From a virus, in the IMG/VR virus record IMGVR_UViG_3300037069_000502, positions 1-20,905 of that record: a DNA stretch of 20,905 nt. The stretch is one strand, 5' to 3'. The position numbers were made by a program, and so were the translations under genes. Position 1 is the first letter of the stretch, and each line of letters starts with the position of its first letter. The notes beneath the pieces are model-generated. The model saw only the letters and a list, made by a program, of their open reading frames with translations. It searched no databases and was not told the DNA's origin. This document shows, one piece after another, positions 8,290-20,905 of the stretch.

Positions 8290-11200
8290 CGCTTCTCCAG
8301 CCGGCGCAGATCTCGTTCCGTCCCGGCCTGACCCTTGGCCAGATCGTCGATCTCGCGGAACTTCCAGACGAGGTGAGACAGCGCCTTATCCTGATATTGA
8401 ACGGGTTCGTTATCAGGGATTGGGACCACGTCCTGACGATCGATGGCGACCTTCTGGAGATGCTGGTCGTCCCCGCCGGCGGCGGTGGCGACAACAACGC
8501 CAAGGGGATCATCGGCACTATCGCCATCATCGCGATCTCCATCGCGGCGCCCTACCTCGCGGCGTCGATCCTCAGCGGTGGCTTCATCGCCGGCGGCGTC
8601 GGCGCGGCTGGAGCAGCGGTCGCGGGCTTCGGGGTCGCCGGCTACGCCTTGACCGCCGGCATCACGCTGGTCGGCACGATGGCGATCTCCGCCCTGATCA
8701 AGCCAGACACTGGCTTCGGATCTGGCACCCGTGCCTACAACAGCGCGGCAGAGAACCCCGCCTACCAGATCAGCGGGCAGTCGAACGAGGCGCGGCCCTA
8801 TGGGACGGTGCCAAGACTATACGGAACTACTAGGTTCTACCCACTACTAGCCTCGACGCCCTACTTCTCGAACGTGGGCAAGACCTCGTCGATGACCGCG
8901 CTCTACGACTACGGCATCGGCACGGTCGACGTGGTCGACACGCGGGTCGGCAATCAGGACATCGAACAACTGGCGCCGCAAGCCTACTTGCATCAAAACA
9001 CCTTGGCGACAGGAACGACCCTCAAACTGGTGGCAAAGGTTCCAAACTACGCCGACGTCACCCACCAGCTTGACCAGAACGTCGACTTCATCGTGCAGAC
9101 CCACGACGAGACGATCAACGCGGTCCTCGACGTCTACTTCCCCGGCGGCTTGACCACGGTCGACAGCAACGGCAACCGCCAGCAGAGGACCGCCGACTTC
9201 CGCGCCGCCTATCGCTTGGCCGGTGATGCCAACTGGACGCCGGTCCCTTCGACGAACTTCAAGGGCGTGACCAAGTCGACGCAGGCTTGGATCTGGGATG
9301 CGCGGTACAATCTGTCGACCGACTACTGGGCGGTCACCACCGGCCACACCACGCAAGGCAACTACCCCACGTCGCGGCTGACACTGGTCCGCGACGGCGT
9401 GGTGATCTACGACGTCTCATCGACCAACTACGGTGGCCTCGACCACGGCATCGACTACAGCCTCGTCACTGACAAGACCCTGAGCGTGCCTTACCTGCGC
9501 GGCGCCTACAGAGGCACCAGCACGAACTGGGGTGGCATCTACAACGCGACCCGCACCTACTACGAGATCAAGGTGCCGCGGGCAGATCCGACAGCGCCGG
9601 TGACCGTGATCGCGGCGACGTTGATCCCCTTCGTGCTGTCGATCCAGTTGCACTTCCCGGCGGCGGGGATCTACGACGTGAAGATCACGCGGACCAGTCC
9701 GGTGACTTCGCCCGACGCCGGCGGAGCGCAAACACAGGTCGACATGGCCGTGGCGTCGATGCTGACGTCGTTTCACGGCGGCAGGGTGGTCAACCTCAAG
9801 CGCCGGCACACGCTGCTGGAGATGCTGTTCTCCGCGACCGACACGCTCAACTCGACCGTCGACGGGGTCAACTCCATCTGCAAGGCGTGGATCAGGTCGG
9901 TGACGGAGACGGGTTGGGGGCCTCTGGTCCAGTCCTCCAATCCCGCCTTGATCGCCCTCGACATTGCCACGGGGCCGGCATGCCACAAGCCCTTGAACGA
10001 TGGCCAGATCGATTTCCCGTCATGGTTCGCCTTTGCCCAGAGGTGCGACGAGGATGTCACCACCAAGCTGAACGGCCTGACCTACGTCACCAACCGGCAC
10101 GAATGGAACGGCGTCATCGACACCGACTTGACGGCACAGTCAGCGATCGACAGCGTGCTTTCGATTGGCCGTGCTGCACGCACCACCACCGCCAACGGCA
10201 AGTTCGGCGTGCTGATGGACGTGCCGAAGAGCGACTTCAGGCAGTTGATCACGCCGGCGAACTCTTGGGGCTTCGAGGGCAACCGTACCTTCGCGCCGAT
10301 CCCTGACGGCTTCCGCGTCGGCTTCATCGATGCCTCGTCCGACTACATGCCGCGAGAGGTGATCGCCTACCGCGACGGCAAGGACGCCAGCAACGCAGAC
10401 ACCCTTGAGGATCTGCCGACGTGGGGCATCACCAACATCGCGCAGGCGTGGCGGCATGGCCGCTACATGCTGGCGCAGGGGTTGCTGCGGTCGGAGACTT
10501 TCAGCGTCTACATGGACGTCGAAAACCTCGCCTTCGGTCGCGGCGACCTCGTCCTGATGCAGCACGACATCCCGAAGTTCGGCGGCATGGCGGCAAGGAT
10601 CACCACCACCGATGGCGCCCAGATCGTCTCCGTCAACCGGCCCCTCGAACTGGGGGCGGGCAACTACACGCTGAGGCTGGCCTCTGGGCCGATTGTCCAG
10701 GGAAAGGTCCTCAGCCAGGTCGATCCGGTGACCTATCGCCTGGACAAAGTCACCGGCGCCGGCACCGACGACCTGATCGTGCTGGGCGACGCCACCACGA
10801 CCGCCAACCCCTATATCGTGATGGGGATCGAAGCCGGGGAAGATCTGACGGCGCGGATCACACTGGTCAGCTACAGCCCCGGCGTCTACACCGCCGACGA
10901 AGGCGACATCCCCGACTGGGATGCGAACTTCGGCGACGCGGTCGATCAGACCACCAACGTCGCGGTCGCGATCACGTCGCTGGCCTATGCTTGGGTGTTC
11001 GACGACGGCATCCCCTACGCGGAGATCACCGTCAAATGGAAGCCGACCAAGGCGGTCTACGCCTATGTCGGTGCCGACGTCGCCCTCCTGACCGGCCCGA
11101 TCAACATGGTGATCGGCCAGATCACCAAAGCGGGATCGGCTAGCCTTTCGTATAGGATACCCTTCAGCGACGCCCAGTTTTTCGGGCATCCGCTGACGAT

Positions 11201-12464
11201 CGCAGTGCGCCCCAAGTCAGTCTCTGGCCTGCGCGGGGTTGAGGCGACGCAACAGATCACGCTCCAGACCTACGACAGCACGCCACTGCCGCCGACCGAC
11301 TTCACGCTGGACACCCACGGCGCGGCCCTGTCGCTCTCTTGGCACCCGTCGCCGTCCAAGGACATCTTGGTCTACATCCTGCGCTACACGCCCGACACCG
11401 TGAACCCGACTTGGGCGACGTCCCAGTTCTTGGATCGGGTCGAGGGCAAGCTGACCTCTTCGACCCAGCCGGTCAGGGCCGGCACCTACATGCTCCGCGC
11501 CATGAACGTGATCGGCAAGCAGTCCGACATCCTGACCATGAAGCTGCCGATGGCCGACATCCCCAACATGATGCCGTTCACGGTGCTGGATGATGGCCCC
11601 TCTTGGCCGGGGACCAAGGACGGCTGGGTGCAGGGCTACGCGCCACCGGGAGGTGCAGGCTTTCCCGTGCTGCTGATCGACGGCGACACAGTCCAGCTGG
11701 CGCACATGACCGGCGTGACCAACTACAACGTCAAGCTGCTCGACGGCTCGTTCCTCTATGTCGGCGCCGGGGATGCGATCTCCGCGAACTATCTGGTGTC
11801 GCTCTTGGACTGGAAGTCCGACATGTCGGTCAAAGCCACCTACACCAGCCTCGTGACGACGGATCTGGGCGGCATCTTCGAGGCGCATATTCAGGCGCAC
11901 ATGCTGGTCGGCGTGGCCGGCAAGTCGGCAGCGCGGGAAGAGTTCTCCGTGCAGGGCTACGGGATCACGCCCTATGTCGGCACCGACACCAAGGCGACCG
12001 ACACGTCGCAGTTCGACAGCGGCTGGAGCGTCTGGCTGGAGTACCGCACCAAGGGGGCCTCAGCCGACGCCTATGGCCCTTGGAAGCGGATCACCGCCGG
12101 CATCGCGACGGGGCGCTTCTTCCAGTTCAGGATCGTCGGATCTGCATCCAATCCGCAGGCGATGATCGTGGTCTACAATGGCAAGATCACCATGAACTTC
12201 GTCGGCAGGAATTGGAACTCGACCAAGCTGACGGTGCCGATCGGCGGTCTGGTGGTGCCGTTCACGCCGGCCTTCTACCAGCCGCCCAGCCTGTCGGTGG
12301 CGCCGGCGGCGGCGGGGGATAACCCTGCTGGCTATTCGGTCGAGGCCGTCACTCGTACCCAAGCCACCATCAAAGTGCTACAACCGGGGACAAACACGCC
12401 GATCGCCGGCACCGCCTACGTCAGCGCCACAGGATACGGCACAGAAAGGACCGCCGCGATATGA
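8268..12464 (+). CDS. TipJ/gpJ-like tail hub, host specificity protein
   Basis: A 1398-residue protein. The N-terminal part (about 1-80) resembles the family's ubiquitin-like start. Residues about 80-145 are Gly/Ala-rich and hydrophobic (GIIGTIAIIAISIAAPYLAA, then ALTAGITLVGTMAISALI). The TipJ signature follows: ISGQSNEARPYGTVPRLYG, then the MTALYDYGIGTVDVVDTRVGN segment near residue 212. A fibronectin III-like module lies near 1000-1090 (PLPPTDFTLDTHGAALSLSWHPSP). The C-terminal 300 residues vary more and probably mediate receptor or fibre contacts. The ATG at 8268 has AAGGGAGG just upstream; the longer frame from 8103 is a shadow of the peptidase gene. Its stop overlaps the fibre start (ATGA). 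Confidence 0.92.
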   Translation: MDGSTDLTLLQPAQISFRPGLTLGQIVDLAELPDEVRQRLILILNGFVIRDWDHVLTIDGDLLEMLVVPAGGGGDNNAKGIIGTIAIIAISIAAPYLAASILSGGFIAGGVGAAGAAVAGFGVAGYALTAGITLVGTMAISALIKPDTGFGSGTRAYNSAAENPAYQISGQSNEARPYGTVPRLYGTTRFYPLLASTPYFSNVGKTSSMTALYDYGIGTVDVVDTRVGNQDIEQLAPQAYLHQNTLATGTTLKLVAKVPNYADVTHQLDQNVDFIVQTHDETINAVLDVYFPGGLTTVDSNGNRQQRTADFRAAYRLAGDANWTPVPSTNFKGVTKSTQAWIWDARYNLSTDYWAVTTGHTTQGNYPTSRLTLVRDGVVIYDVSSTNYGGLDHGIDYSLVTDKTLSVPYLRGAYRGTSTNWGGIYNATRTYYEIKVPRADPTAPVTVIAATLIPFVLSIQLHFPAAGIYDVKITRTSPVTSPDAGGAQTQVDMAVASMLTSFHGGRVVNLKRRHTLLEMLFSATDTLNSTVDGVNSICKAWIRSVTETGWGPLVQSSNPALIALDIATGPACHKPLNDGQIDFPSWFAFAQRCDEDVTTKLNGLTYVTNRHEWNGVIDTDLTAQSAIDSVLSIGRAARTTTANGKFGVLMDVPKSDFRQLITPANSWGFEGNRTFAPIPDGFRVGFIDASSDYMPREVIAYRDGKDASNADTLEDLPTWGITNIAQAWRHGRYMLAQGLLRSETFSVYMDVENLAFGRGDLVLMQHDIPKFGGMAARITTTDGAQIVSVNRPLELGAGNYTLRLASGPIVQGKVLSQVDPVTYRLDKVTGAGTDDLIVLGDATTTANPYIVMGIEAGEDLTARITLVSYSPGVYTADEGDIPDWDANFGDAVDQTTNVAVAITSLAYAWVFDDGIPYAEITVKWKPTKAVYAYVGADVALLTGPINMVIGQITKAGSASLSYRIPFSDAQFFGHPLTIAVRPKSVSGLRGVEATQQITLQTYDSTPLPPTDFTLDTHGAALSLSWHPSPSKDILVYILRYTPDTVNPTWATSQFLDRVEGKLTSSTQPVRAGTYMLRAMNVIGKQSDILTMKLPMADIPNMMPFTVLDDGPSWPGTKDGWVQGYAPPGGAGFPVLLIDGDTVQLAHMTGVTNYNVKLLDGSFLYVGAGDAISANYLVSLLDWKSDMSVKATYTSLVTTDLGGIFEAHIQAHMLVGVAGKSAAREEFSVQGYGITPYVGTDTKATDTSQFDSGWSVWLEYRTKGASADAYGPWKRITAGIATGRFFQFRIVGSASNPQAMIVVYNGKITMNFVGRNWNSTKLTVPIGGLVVPFTPAFYQPPSLSVAPAAAGDNPAGYSVEAVTRTQATIKVLQPGTNTPIAGTAYVSATGYGTERTAAI

Positions 12465-18155: not shown

Positions 18156-18415
18156 ACCCAGTCCCGGTTGACGTTGATCGACGGCCAGCGGTCGCGCTCT
18201 TCGATGCGGCTGGCGATGCTGTGGTGCGCGGTCACCGACACGGTGCGCTCCTCACCGCTGGAGCGCGACAACAGCACCAGCTTGAAGGGATGCGGGTCGG
18301 AGGTGACGTCGCGGTAGCGGAAGAAGAACTCGTCCTCGTTGATGTAGCCAACCACCATCGGGTCGGCGTTCGGCTTCAGGATGCCCTTCAGGGCGTTTTC
18401 GTGTTCGTCGTACAT
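18152..18415 (-). CDS. Hypothetical protein
   Basis: An 87-residue protein with ATG at 18415 and strong ribosome site AAAGGAG. The frame extending up to 18670 is a shadow of the previous gene. Sequence: an acidic helical start (MYDEHENALKGILKP), then strands (MVVGYINEDEFFFRYRDV, then FKLVLLSRSSGEERTVSVTA) and a basic end (SRIEERDRWPSINVNRDWV). No family is recognised. The 26-bp palindrome at 18435-18460 lies just upstream of its ribosome site, so its translation or transcription may be separately controlled. Confidence 0.65.
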   Translation of the reverse strand: MYDEHENALKGILKPNADPMVVGYINEDEFFFRYRDVTSDPHPFKLVLLSRSSGEERTVSVTAHHSIASRIEERDRWPSINVNRDWV

Positions 18416-18434
18416 GGTTGGCTCCTTTGGTGGT

Positions 18435-18460
18435 GACACCGCCAAAATTTTGGCGGTGTC
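18435..18460. repeat. Perfect 26-bp palindrome in leftward operon
   Basis: The arms GACACCGCCAAAA and TTTTGGCGGTGTC are exact reverse complements with no spacer. As RNA it gives a nine-pair GC-rich stem with an eight-base AAAATTTT loop (or longer pairing). No T-run follows on either strand (GGGTTGG on plus, ACCACC on minus). It lies between the first two leftward genes and close to the ribosome site of the second. Confidence 0.9.
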
Positions 18461-18470
18461 GGGTTGGTGG

Positions 18471-18749
18471 TCAGTCGTCGGGGTCGGTGAAGACGTGGAG
18501 CGGGAAGCCGAAACCGGAGAAGCGGTTGATCTCCCACTGCCGTTCTTGTTCGGTGCGGTGGTAGGTTTCGGAGATGGTCCGGTAGCCATCGTCGCTTCCA
18601 TCCACACGGTTCTCGTAGAACTTTTGCAGCATGAGGGTGTGGAACCTTGCGTCGGGGTCGATGACGCCAAGGATGGCGAAGCGGAGATGGCGGCGATCGG
18701 CGTGTTGGACGTAGCGGAGGGCAGCGTTGTGGTCGTTCCTCAGTTTCAT
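18471..18749 (-). CDS. Hypothetical protein, first gene of leftward cassette
   Basis: A 92-residue protein with ATG at 18749 and ribosome site AAGGAG nine bases upstream; the start at 18776 would place the ribosome site inside the gene. The sequence is basic and aromatic (MKLRNDHNAALRYVQHADRR, then RFAILGVIDPDARFHTLMLQ, then YRTISETYHRTEQERQWEIN) and ends FGFPLHVFTDPDD. No family is recognised. As the gene nearest the divergent control region it would be the first made from the leftward promoter, a position often held by early regulators or host-takeover proteins; this is inference. Confidence 0.7.
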   Translation of the reverse strand: MKLRNDHNAALRYVQHADRRHLRFAILGVIDPDARFHTLMLQKFYENRVDGSDDGYRTISETYHRTEQERQWEINRFSGFGFPLHVFTDPDD

Positions 18750-18776
18750 GTCGTGTGTCTCCTTGTTGACCGTCAC

Positions 18777-18805
18777 ACCTTACATCAAGATCTTGACATG
18801 GTCAA
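18777..18805 (-). promoter_or_regulatory. Predicted leftward promoter
   Basis: On the minus strand TTGACC (18805-18800) and TAAGGT (18782-18777) are 17 bp apart. The -10 is poor (3/6), the -35 good (5/6). It would start the cassette near 18770, about 20 bases before the 18749 start. The left 10-bp palindrome sits in its spacer. Confidence 0.45.
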
Positions 18806-18816
18806 GCAAGATCTTG
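18786..18816. promoter_or_regulatory. Tandem operator-like palindromes
   Basis: CAAGATCTTG occurs twice, at 18786-18795 and 18807-18816, with centres 21 bp apart (two helical turns). Between and overlapping them is a further inverted repeat CTTGAC-ATG-GTCAAG (18792-18806). One site lies in the spacer of the leftward promoter, the other touches the -35 box of the rightward one. This fits binding sites for the adjacent helix-turn-helix regulator. Confidence 0.7.
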
Positions 18817-18842
18817 TCACGCTGTTCTGGGTCTGTTACATT
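18814..18842 (+). promoter_or_regulatory. Predicted rightward promoter giving a leaderless mRNA
   Basis: TTGTCA (18814-18819, 5/6) and TACATT (18837-18842, 4/6) are 17 bp apart. The start would fall at about 18849, which is the A of the regulator's ATG. No ribosome site precedes that ATG, so translation would be leaderless. Confidence 0.55.
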
Positions 18843-18848
18843 CTTGGC

Positions 18849-19127
18849 ATGGAAAACAGCATCACCCCACCCCGCAAACTGAAGGCGCTCATCGTCACCA
18901 GAGGCGTCTCCCAGATCACCGTCGCGAAGGATCTTGGCATCTCCGCGACCCACCTCAACCGGATCTTGTCGTCCCGTTACCGGCCAAGCTGGCCGCTGAT
19001 CGTCAAGATCAACGACTGGTCGGACGGCATCGTCAACCTAGATGACTGGCGATCGGTATTCCAAGATCTGCCGCGAGGCGTCGGTGGCGCCGAAGCCAAC
19101 GATGACAGTCTGGCCGACGCTTCGTAG
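18849..19127 (+). CDS. Helix-turn-helix (XRE/Cro-like) transcriptional regulator
   Basis: A 92-residue protein with a Cro/cI-type DNA-binding domain at about residues 10-45: LKALIVTRGVSQITVAKDLGISATHLNRILSSR, in which the second and recognition helices (QITVAKDLG-IS-ATHLNRIL) are clear. A segment PLIVKINDWSDGIVNLDDW follows, as in small Cro-like proteins that end with NxxDW. The C-terminal 25 residues are loosely composed and coincide with the overlap with the convergent VRR-NUC gene. It is the only rightward gene in this half and faces the leftward cassette across an operator-bearing region, so it likely represses or switches the two promoters. The longer frame from 18381 is rejected. Confidence 0.85.
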   Translation: MENSITPPRKLKALIVTRGVSQITVAKDLGISATHLNRILSSRYRPSWPLIVKINDWSDGIVNLDDWRSVFQDLPRGVGGAEANDDSLADAS

Positions 19128-19409
19128 GTAGGCGTGGATCTTGCTCTGGGTCGAGGACAGGTGACCGCACTTGGTGCGCTTCATCTCGACCCAGAGGCCC
19201 CAAGCCGGGATGTGGAGATCCGGCATCCCCGCCAGTACGCCCTCGTCCTTGAGCCGCTTCCCGGTCGAGATGGAGCGATGCTCCCCGTTCGGGATCGCGT
19301 AGATCAGCACGTCGGGGAAGGTGGCGCGAAACCACACCACCAACCCGATTTGCTCGCTATGCTCAGAAAAAGTCGAGGTCGATGTGGTCCTTCGTGGCGA
19401 AAGGCGCAT
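19038..19409 (-). CDS. VRR-NUC domain nuclease
   Basis: A 123-residue single-domain nuclease of the PD-(D/E)XK class, VRR-NUC family. Visible motifs are SEHSEQIGLVVWFRATFP with Glu16, then IPNGEHRSISTGKRLKDEGV, GMPDLHIPA (Asp64) and LWVEMKR (Glu75-x-Lys77), followed by LSSTQSKIHAYLRSVG with Gln88. These are the standard catalytic residues. ATG at 19409 has AAGGGA upstream; the longer frame to 19652 is a shadow of the helicase. It overlaps the helicase 3' end by 47 bases and the regulator gene tail-to-tail by 90 bases. Phage VRR-NUC proteins are associated with recombination or replication; pairing with an SF2 helicase here agrees with that. Confidence 0.9.
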   Translation of the reverse strand: MRLSPRRTTSTSTFSEHSEQIGLVVWFRATFPDVLIYAIPNGEHRSISTGKRLKDEGVLAGMPDLHIPAWGLWVEMKRTKCGHLSSTQSKIHAYLRSVGQTVIVGFGATDASRQILEYRSPVI

Positions 19410-20905
19410 CGGTCGTTCCCTTCTCTGGCTGGGGTGGTTTTGGCGCCGCTGGTGTGTAGTCCAGTTGCATGATCTTGTGATATTGGCCGTCAGGCTTGAC
19501 CTTGATCCGGCTGGGCTTGTTCCACCACTGGCACTCTGCCAGCGCCTCGTCGGTCGTGTCGGCACCTGACGCCAGCGCCGCCTTCCGCGCCTTGTAGCGG
19601 CTTGCGGCAAATCCACCATGATCGGGGCAGAGCCATTCGCTGATCGAAGCAAGGCCGCAGATGTAGGTGACCCTGACGCTGTCTGGTTTTCCCGGCTTGA
19701 CCCAGCGCCGGTAGGTGACCTGATCGACGTCGAACCATTCCGCTTGCACCTGAGACGTCAGCATGGCGCCGTCATAGGCGTTGTGGCCGTGCTTCAGTTC
19801 TGGCGTGGGGAACTTGGCATAGCAGTGCTGGCAGTAGGTGCAGCCGGCGTAGCTGAACTGCTGGCACTCCTCGCACTTCTTGACCGGCGCCTCGCCGCCT
19901 TCACTCTTGCCCTTGGCGGTCGGCTTGACGTCGTCGATGAAGCCGTGCCGCTGCACATTGGTGCCGTAGTCGAGGACGAGACAGTTCTCCTTGCCGGGGG
20001 CCGTGCGGGTGCCGCGACCGACCATCTGGACGTAGAGGCCTGTGCTGGCCGTGGCGCGGACCAAGGCCACCAGATCGGTCGAGGGCGCGTTGAAGCCGGT
20101 GGTCAGAACGTTGATGTTGATCAGGCACTTCAGCCGGCCCGCCTTGAAGTCATCGATCTTGCGGGTGCGTTCCTTCTTCTCGTCGGTGCCGGTGATGACT
20201 TCGGCTTCGACGCCGTGGGTGGCGAACGCCTCGCGCAGCATTACAGCGTGATCGATGCCCGACGCGAAGATCAGCCACGCCTTGCGGCCCGCACCATTGG
20301 CGACGATCTCCTCGACCGTCAGCCGCACAAGTTCTGGATCTGACGCAGCCAGCGCCAACTCGCTTTCGATGAACTCACCGCCGCGCATGTGGACGTTGGT
20401 CAGGTCGATCGACCGCTTGGCGCCCTTCGAGATCACCGGCGACAGCCAGCCCTCCTCCATCAGCTTGGCCACCGGGATGTCGTGGGCGATGCCGTCGAAC
20501 AAGGCGCCTTCGCCCTTGTGCAGGTATCCGCTGTCGAGGCGGTACGGCGTGGCGGTGAAGCCGACGATCTTGATGTCGGGGTTGCAGACCTTCAGATCGG
20601 CCAAGAACCGGCCGTAGCGCGTGGTCGTCGAGCGTGGGATCAGGTGGCATTCGTCGACCAGCACCAGATCCGGCGGCGGGATCATCTTGTAGGCCTGATC
20701 GCAGATCGACTGGATGCCGGCGACCACGACCTGAGTGTCGAGGCGCTTCTGGTTCAGCGAGGCGCTGTAGAAGCCCAGTTCGACACCGGGGCAGAGGTTC
20801 AGGATCTCGTCAGCGTCCTGCTCCAGCAGTTCCTTGACGTGGCTGAGGACCAGCACGCGGGTGCCGGGGAACATCATCGCGTCCTTGATGACTTGGGCGA
20901 TCCCT
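19363..20905 (-). CDS. SF2 DEAD/DEAH-type helicase, partial (5' end off window)
   Basis: 513 residues are visible; the frame is open at the right edge, so motif I (Walker A) lies outside. Counting from the Met at 20877: motif II DECH at 75-78, motif III TATPYR at 108-113, motif V near 256-268 (NVLTTGFNAPSTD), and motif VI QMVGRGTR at 284-291. This is the Res III/type I-like SF2 helicase fold. A cysteine cluster (335, 338, 346, 349, 352: CEEC ... CTYCQHC) probably binds zinc, and a further Cys/His segment (CGLASISEWLCPDHGG) follows. Such helicases act in phage replication or recombination. The gene ends 47 bases inside the VRR-NUC gene, giving a coupled pair. Confidence 0.92.
   Translation of the reverse strand, partial: GIAQVIKDAMMFPGTRVLVLSHVKELLEQDADEILNLCPGVELGFYSASLNQKRLDTQVVVAGIQSICDQAYKMIPPPDLVLVDECHLIPRSTTTRYGRFLADLKVCNPDIKIVGFTATPYRLDSGYLHKGEGALFDGIAHDIPVAKLMEEGWLSPVISKGAKRSIDLTNVHMRGGEFIESELALAASDPELVRLTVEEIVANGAGRKAWLIFASGIDHAVMLREAFATHGVEAEVITGTDEKKERTRKIDDFKAGRLKCLININVLTTGFNAPSTDLVALVRATASTGLYVQMVGRGTRTAPGKENCLVLDYGTNVQRHGFIDDVKPTAKGKSEGGEAPVKKCEECQQFSYAGCTYCQHCYAKFPTPELKHGHNAYDGAMLTSQVQAEWFDVDQVTYRRWVKPGKPDSVRVTYICGLASISEWLCPDHGGFAASRYKARKAALASGADTTDEALAECQWWNKPSRIKVKPDGQYHKIMQLDYTPAAPKPPQPEKGTTDAPFATKDHIDLDFF

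Follow-up and report, generated by a model that had tools for sequence, protein, structure and literature searches.

A predicted leaderless Cro-type regulator and paired operator-like palindromes in a phage fragment of alphaproteobacterial type

The regulator gene and its neighbourhood

The window analysed here is a 20.9-kb viral fragment (20,905 bases) from a phage of alphaproteobacterial type, in which the tail genes run rightward and a helicase, a VRR-NUC nuclease and a run of small open reading frames (ORFs) lie on the leftward strand. Against this helicase/VRR-NUC strand, a single HTH gene (18849–19127) is oriented rightward. The helicase shares 61–69% identity with environmental phage contigs and with Roseobacter phages CRP-901/902, which makes an alphaproteobacterial host probable; nearly all relatives have VRR-NUC downstream of the helicase. 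The locus contains the following features.

18474–18749, minus strand: divergent leftward gene, 92 aa, ATG at 18749, strong Shine-Dalgarno (SD) site AAGGAG
18805 to 18777, minus strand: leftward promoter TTGACC-17-TAAGGT, predicted by direct reading of the sequence, with its start expected near 18770
18786–18795: operator-like site 1, CAAGATCTTG, inside the leftward promoter spacer
18792–18806: central inverted repeat CTTGAC-atg-GTCAAG
18807–18816: operator-like site 2, CAAGATCTTG, overlapping the rightward -35
18814–18842, plus strand: predicted rightward promoter TTGTCA-17-TACATT (-35 at 18814–18819, -10 at 18837–18842)
18849–19127, plus strand: regulator gene, 92-aa XRE/Cro-like HTH protein, ATG 18849 the sole feasible start
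19041–19412, minus strand: VRR-NUC nuclease gene (phrog_824, E = 6.8e-34), convergent with the regulator gene

By its domain matches, the 92-residue protein is a small XRE/Cro-type HTH regulator, in line with its description as Cro-like in the first-pass annotation. It matched HTH_31 (E = 1.4e-5) and HTH_3 (E = 1.1e-4), each match falling slightly short of the curated gathering cut-off, and its clear homologues exceed the HTH cut-offs; searched together with its neighbours in its own record, it reached E = 2e-6 and 23.2 bits for HTH_3, above the 23-bit cut-off. The same search found no second HTH gene in the fragment, 18849–19127 being the sole match, and a CI-type partner could lie beyond it. 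Direct searches of phages, plasmids, viral contigs and genome contigs returned no close homologue, and neither such a homologue nor a second copy of the operator was found with which to test binding or the two-way balance that the annotation had suggested. A structure model computed without homologues was too poor for use (pLDDT 44).

The divergent leftward ORF shows strong anti-SD pairing (-8.3 kcal/mol); it has no Pfam match at E = 0.01, a best PHROG match of E = 0.24 and no relative among the viral contigs searched. Elsewhere on this strand, a perfect 26-bp palindrome, GACACCGCCAAAATTTTGGCGGTGTC, lies at 18432–18461 between two small leftward genes. On the other side, the 3′ ends of the regulator and VRR-NUC genes overlap by about 90 bp (19038–19127). 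Because the genes are convergent and a scan of 18400–19300 found no terminator-like site, antisense transcription across the regulator gene is likely.

Predicted promoters and operator-like sites

The first-pass annotation had described two identical 10-bp palindromes 21 bp apart, and exact copies of CAAGATCTTG do lie at that start-to-start distance, with no third copy in the 20,905 bases; with its flanks, site 1 forms a 12-bp palindrome, TCAAGATCTTGA. Among 300 dinucleotide shuffles of the whole window, 5 contained a pair of identical perfect 10-bp palindromes within 60 bp; when the 99-bp intergenic region was shuffled 20,000 times, such a pair never appeared. The inverted repeat placed between the two sites is real, but it has 4 bp in common with site 1. 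Interpretations of this central repeat as an FNR/FixK-type site or a C-box were dropped because its spacing and arms do not suit either. Pairs of CAAGATCTTG also occurred in other viral contigs (17 matches), mostly as repeats within coding regions that lack a recognisable HTH neighbour, and no related switch was among them; the operator assignment thus draws solely on the window sequence.

Site 1 falls in the leftward promoter spacer, as proposed, whereas site 2, said to lie at the rightward -35, covers only its first three bases. Measured from the regulator start, the centres of sites 2 and 1 are at -37.5 and -58.5, upstream of the regulator's -35 and outside its spacer; from the predicted leftward start they are at about -41.5 and -20.5.

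The two divergent promoters fared differently. The rightward one was recovered as described, with an extended TGn preceding its -10. The leftward one is weaker and fell below the scanner threshold, with 8 of 12 consensus matches (3 of 6 in the -10) on a score based on the E. coli consensus. Although the rightward promoter was the only sigma-70-like match in 18400–19300 (0.1 expected), the 20 kb as a whole contained 4 such matches against 3.1 expected; its significance therefore comes from where it sits relative to the ATG and not from the score. Its -10 ends 6 nt before the regulator ATG (18849–18851), which puts the predicted transcription start on the A of that codon, just where the earlier reading had it. 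The absence of a ribosome site was likewise borne out: anti-SD pairing at this ATG is -3.6 kcal/mol, compared with -5 to -10 kcal/mol for most window genes. ATG 18849 is the only in-frame ATG, GTG or TTG between the operator and the HTH domain, and the next in-frame start upstream, ATG 18798, lies within the operator.

Probable leaderless starts among Rhodobacterales homologues

Among 391 genomes from the order to which a Rhodobacteraceae relative belongs, our search gave a single clear homologue of the regulator (L197, E = 6e-9), the best one obtained from genomes. A profile built from four proteins then identified 18 genomes at E = 1e-9 or better. Homologues were picked by protein similarity alone, upstream DNA playing no part, and their start codons were set by closeness to the model start.

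Seventeen Rhodobacterales homologues had a median anti-SD energy of -2.5 kcal/mol, with none of the 17 at -6 kcal/mol or below. Their mean promoter score peaked at 6.94 when the -10 ended 6 nt before the ATG, whereas random positions averaged 4.00 and did not exceed 5.53 in 200,000 draws. A score of at least 8 (of 12) was found 5–8 nt before the ATG in 59% of homologues and in 1% at other offsets. The window promoter scores 9 of 12 at exactly 6 nt and follows the promoter pattern of this family (A3), with no SD site and a -10 six to seven nt before the ATG. The leaderless message that had been proposed by analogy with lambda cI is consistent with this family-wide pattern, and the comparison, though indirect, gives strong support to a leaderless start as an inherited lineage trait of small Cro-like regulators in Rhodobacterales. 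It also suggests that such starts are normal for these regulators in the order, not one phage's curiosity.

Homologues outside Rhodobacterales gave no clean 6-nt promoter peak. Generic Rhodobacterales HTH_3 genes also peaked, more weakly (17% with a score of at least 8), so the leaderless trait is not exclusive to the Cro-like family. Across all ATGs in the relatives' contigs, the excess at 6 nt was slight (31 of 7,250); leaderlessness is therefore no general property of ORFs in these contigs.

Family members are defined by an HTH followed by an extension of the G-x-V-x(3-4)-W type, with the start just before the first helix, and 10 of 19 match YdaS_toxin. The window regulator has such an extension (DGIVNLDDW) but also a 7-residue N-terminal insertion, and its sequence identity of 18–36% would make it a distant member. 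Most homologues diverge from a second HTH gene, mostly of 95–135 aa, and in one locus (L206) a CII-like gene (phrog_101) follows the Cro-like homologue; these loci are prophage-type cI/cro modules. The HTH partners opposite the 18 Cro-like genes L201–L218 showed their own promoter peak 6 nt before the ATG (6.06 versus 3.88; 0 of 200,000 draws), hinting that both divergent messages may be leaderless. Many of the homologue promoters contain inverted repeats, which tend to lie near -25 and near -58 relative to the ATG; single repeats are rarely significant against shuffles.

Within the phage group, two relatives (L002 and L071) carry an HTH gene likewise opposite to, and downstream of, helicase/VRR-NUC. 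The HTH gene of L071 has no ribosome site, a TATGAT 7 nt before its ATG (promoter 9 of 12 at 7 nt) and a 9-bp-arm palindrome at the -35. Directly downstream, in the same orientation, lies a C5 DNA methyltransferase gene, an arrangement (10026–11241) reminiscent of a phage-borne orphan methyltransferase under C-protein control. In other members of the group (L090–L096), the HTH genes bear SD sites. In two contigs (L085, 780–940; L087, 700–860), HTH genes have TTGTGG-17-TATATT 6–7 nt before the ATG, and the promoter coincides in part with a GC-rich hairpin and T run resembling a terminator. Roseobacter phages CRP-902 (L003, 1892–2001) and CRP-901 (L004, 1908–2029) share a conserved inverted repeat, TTTACAG-N13/14-CTGTAAA, between the HTH gene gp12 and gp13.

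Known switches and a model for the locus

The mRNA of lambda cI is leaderless, as is that of the phage repressor PaaR2 (PMC8630535). Leaderless mRNAs are common in Alphaproteobacteria, with 375 in Caulobacter (PMC4117421) and 171 in S. meliloti (PMC3616915), and the C proteins of restriction-modification systems often have leaderless transcripts and paired operators (PMC4824078, PMC5333194). With both leaderless phage regulators and leaderless C proteins with paired operators on record, the window belongs to a known kind.

It shares with lambda OR the divergent promoters, dyad operators over promoter elements and a leaderless regulator mRNA, here predicted. However, lambda OR has three operators of 17 bp, whereas the window has two 10-bp sites and shows one regulator, Cro/YdaS-like rather than a two-domain CI. 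The PaaR2/YdaS region of CP-933P is similar in its 97-bp divergent region, its palindromic operators over both promoters and its one regulator translated from a leaderless mRNA (again predicted in the window) (PMC8630535); in CP-933P the two facing genes both encode HTH proteins, the leaderless one being on the CI side, whereas in the window one HTH gene faces a 92-aa ORF. C proteins are likewise small XRE proteins with paired inverted-repeat operators upstream of their own gene (PMC4824078, PMC5333194). Unlike them, the window regulator has no adjacent restriction or modification gene, its neighbours being the 92-aa ORF, VRR-NUC and the helicase; its relative L071 does have the adjacent methyltransferase. 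Closest in kind are the Rhodobacterales Cro-like genes, with a homologous protein, no SD site, a -10 six nt before the ATG and promoter-region inverted repeats. Their partner is an HTH repressor, in contrast to the unrelated ORF with a good SD site in the window, and their repeats usually lie in the regulator spacer or -10, whereas those of the window lie upstream of the -35. Repeated dyad operators overlapping both promoters, as in lambda-type cI/cro modules, are present, the leftward promoter being a predicted one. Because the divergent gene has no HTH and the fragment holds only one, we do not file the window as a complete cI/cro module, but as a locus that would work like one side of it.

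On this evidence, we consider it reasonably likely that the locus encodes a Cro-type regulator with a leaderless message, which controls its own gene as well as the leftward small-gene operon. Transcription from A18849 would yield a leaderless mRNA for a small Cro-type HTH dimer, which would bind both CAAGATCTTG sites, on one face of the DNA as they are two helical turns apart, and perhaps also the central repeat. Occupation of site 2 would block the -35 of the regulator's own promoter, resulting in negative autoregulation; occupation of site 1 would block the spacer of the leftward promoter, turning off the small genes from 18749. Antisense transcription, arising by leftward read-through from helicase/VRR-NUC, may also work against the regulator. 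We infer binding, the direction of regulation and the order of site filling from the layout, and, given where the sites lie relative to the two predicted starts, the simplest reading is that both promoters are repressed. Several observations speak against the proposed mechanism: the leftward promoter is weak by consensus, CAAGATCTTG pairs in other viral contigs fall mostly in coding regions, the inverted repeats of homologues usually lie further downstream, in the regulator spacer or -10, and the window protein is distant from the family.

A serious rival, albeit an unlikely one, is dual action as at lambda OR2/OR3, in which site 2 would activate the weak leftward promoter and at the same time repress that of the regulator itself, and site 1 would repress the leftward promoter at high dose. 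The centre of site 2 at about -41.5 from the predicted leftward start is a class II activator position, with site 1 at -20.5, and the poor leftward -10 would suit a promoter of this type; yet that start is itself predicted, so that -41.5 may be off by a few bp, and Cro-type proteins usually act as repressors only. It is quite improbable that the sites serve another DNA-binding protein, either a host factor or a CI-type repressor whose gene lies outside the fragment, with the 92-aa protein as one of two regulators: family loci usually have a second HTH gene opposite the Cro-like one and the window is a fragment with one HTH match, but no second HTH gene adjoins the region and the ORF found there shows no relation to HTH families. 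Chance or structural palindromes, with the regulator made from a leader-bearing transcript (for example, from near ATG 18798) or by read-through, are very hard to credit, for although the promoter score is unexceptional within 20 kb and the reading frame is open upstream to 18381, local shuffles never reproduced the palindrome pair, the 6-nt spacing between -10 and ATG is family-wide and GC3 drops from 0.78 in the regulator gene to 0.62 upstream of 18849.

Returning to the autoregulated leaderless regulator, the part that may be new is the regularity of such regulators within Rhodobacterales; the literature searched gave no report of it, which is weak evidence of novelty. As a tentative generalization that we hold to be possible but doubtful, small XRE immunity-type regulators of Rhodobacterales and of the phages that infect them would as a rule be leaderless, frequently on either side of the divergent region, and the window would be a stripped-down single-protein switch without a CI partner. 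Leaderless repressor messages such as those of lambda cI, PaaR2 and the C proteins are usually cited as oddities, whereas our comparison suggests systematic leaderlessness of small XRE switch proteins in one bacterial order. If true, the decision circuit would be translated without Shine-Dalgarno initiation, and phage decisions could be swayed by the balance between 70S and 30S initiation and so by the physiology of the host.
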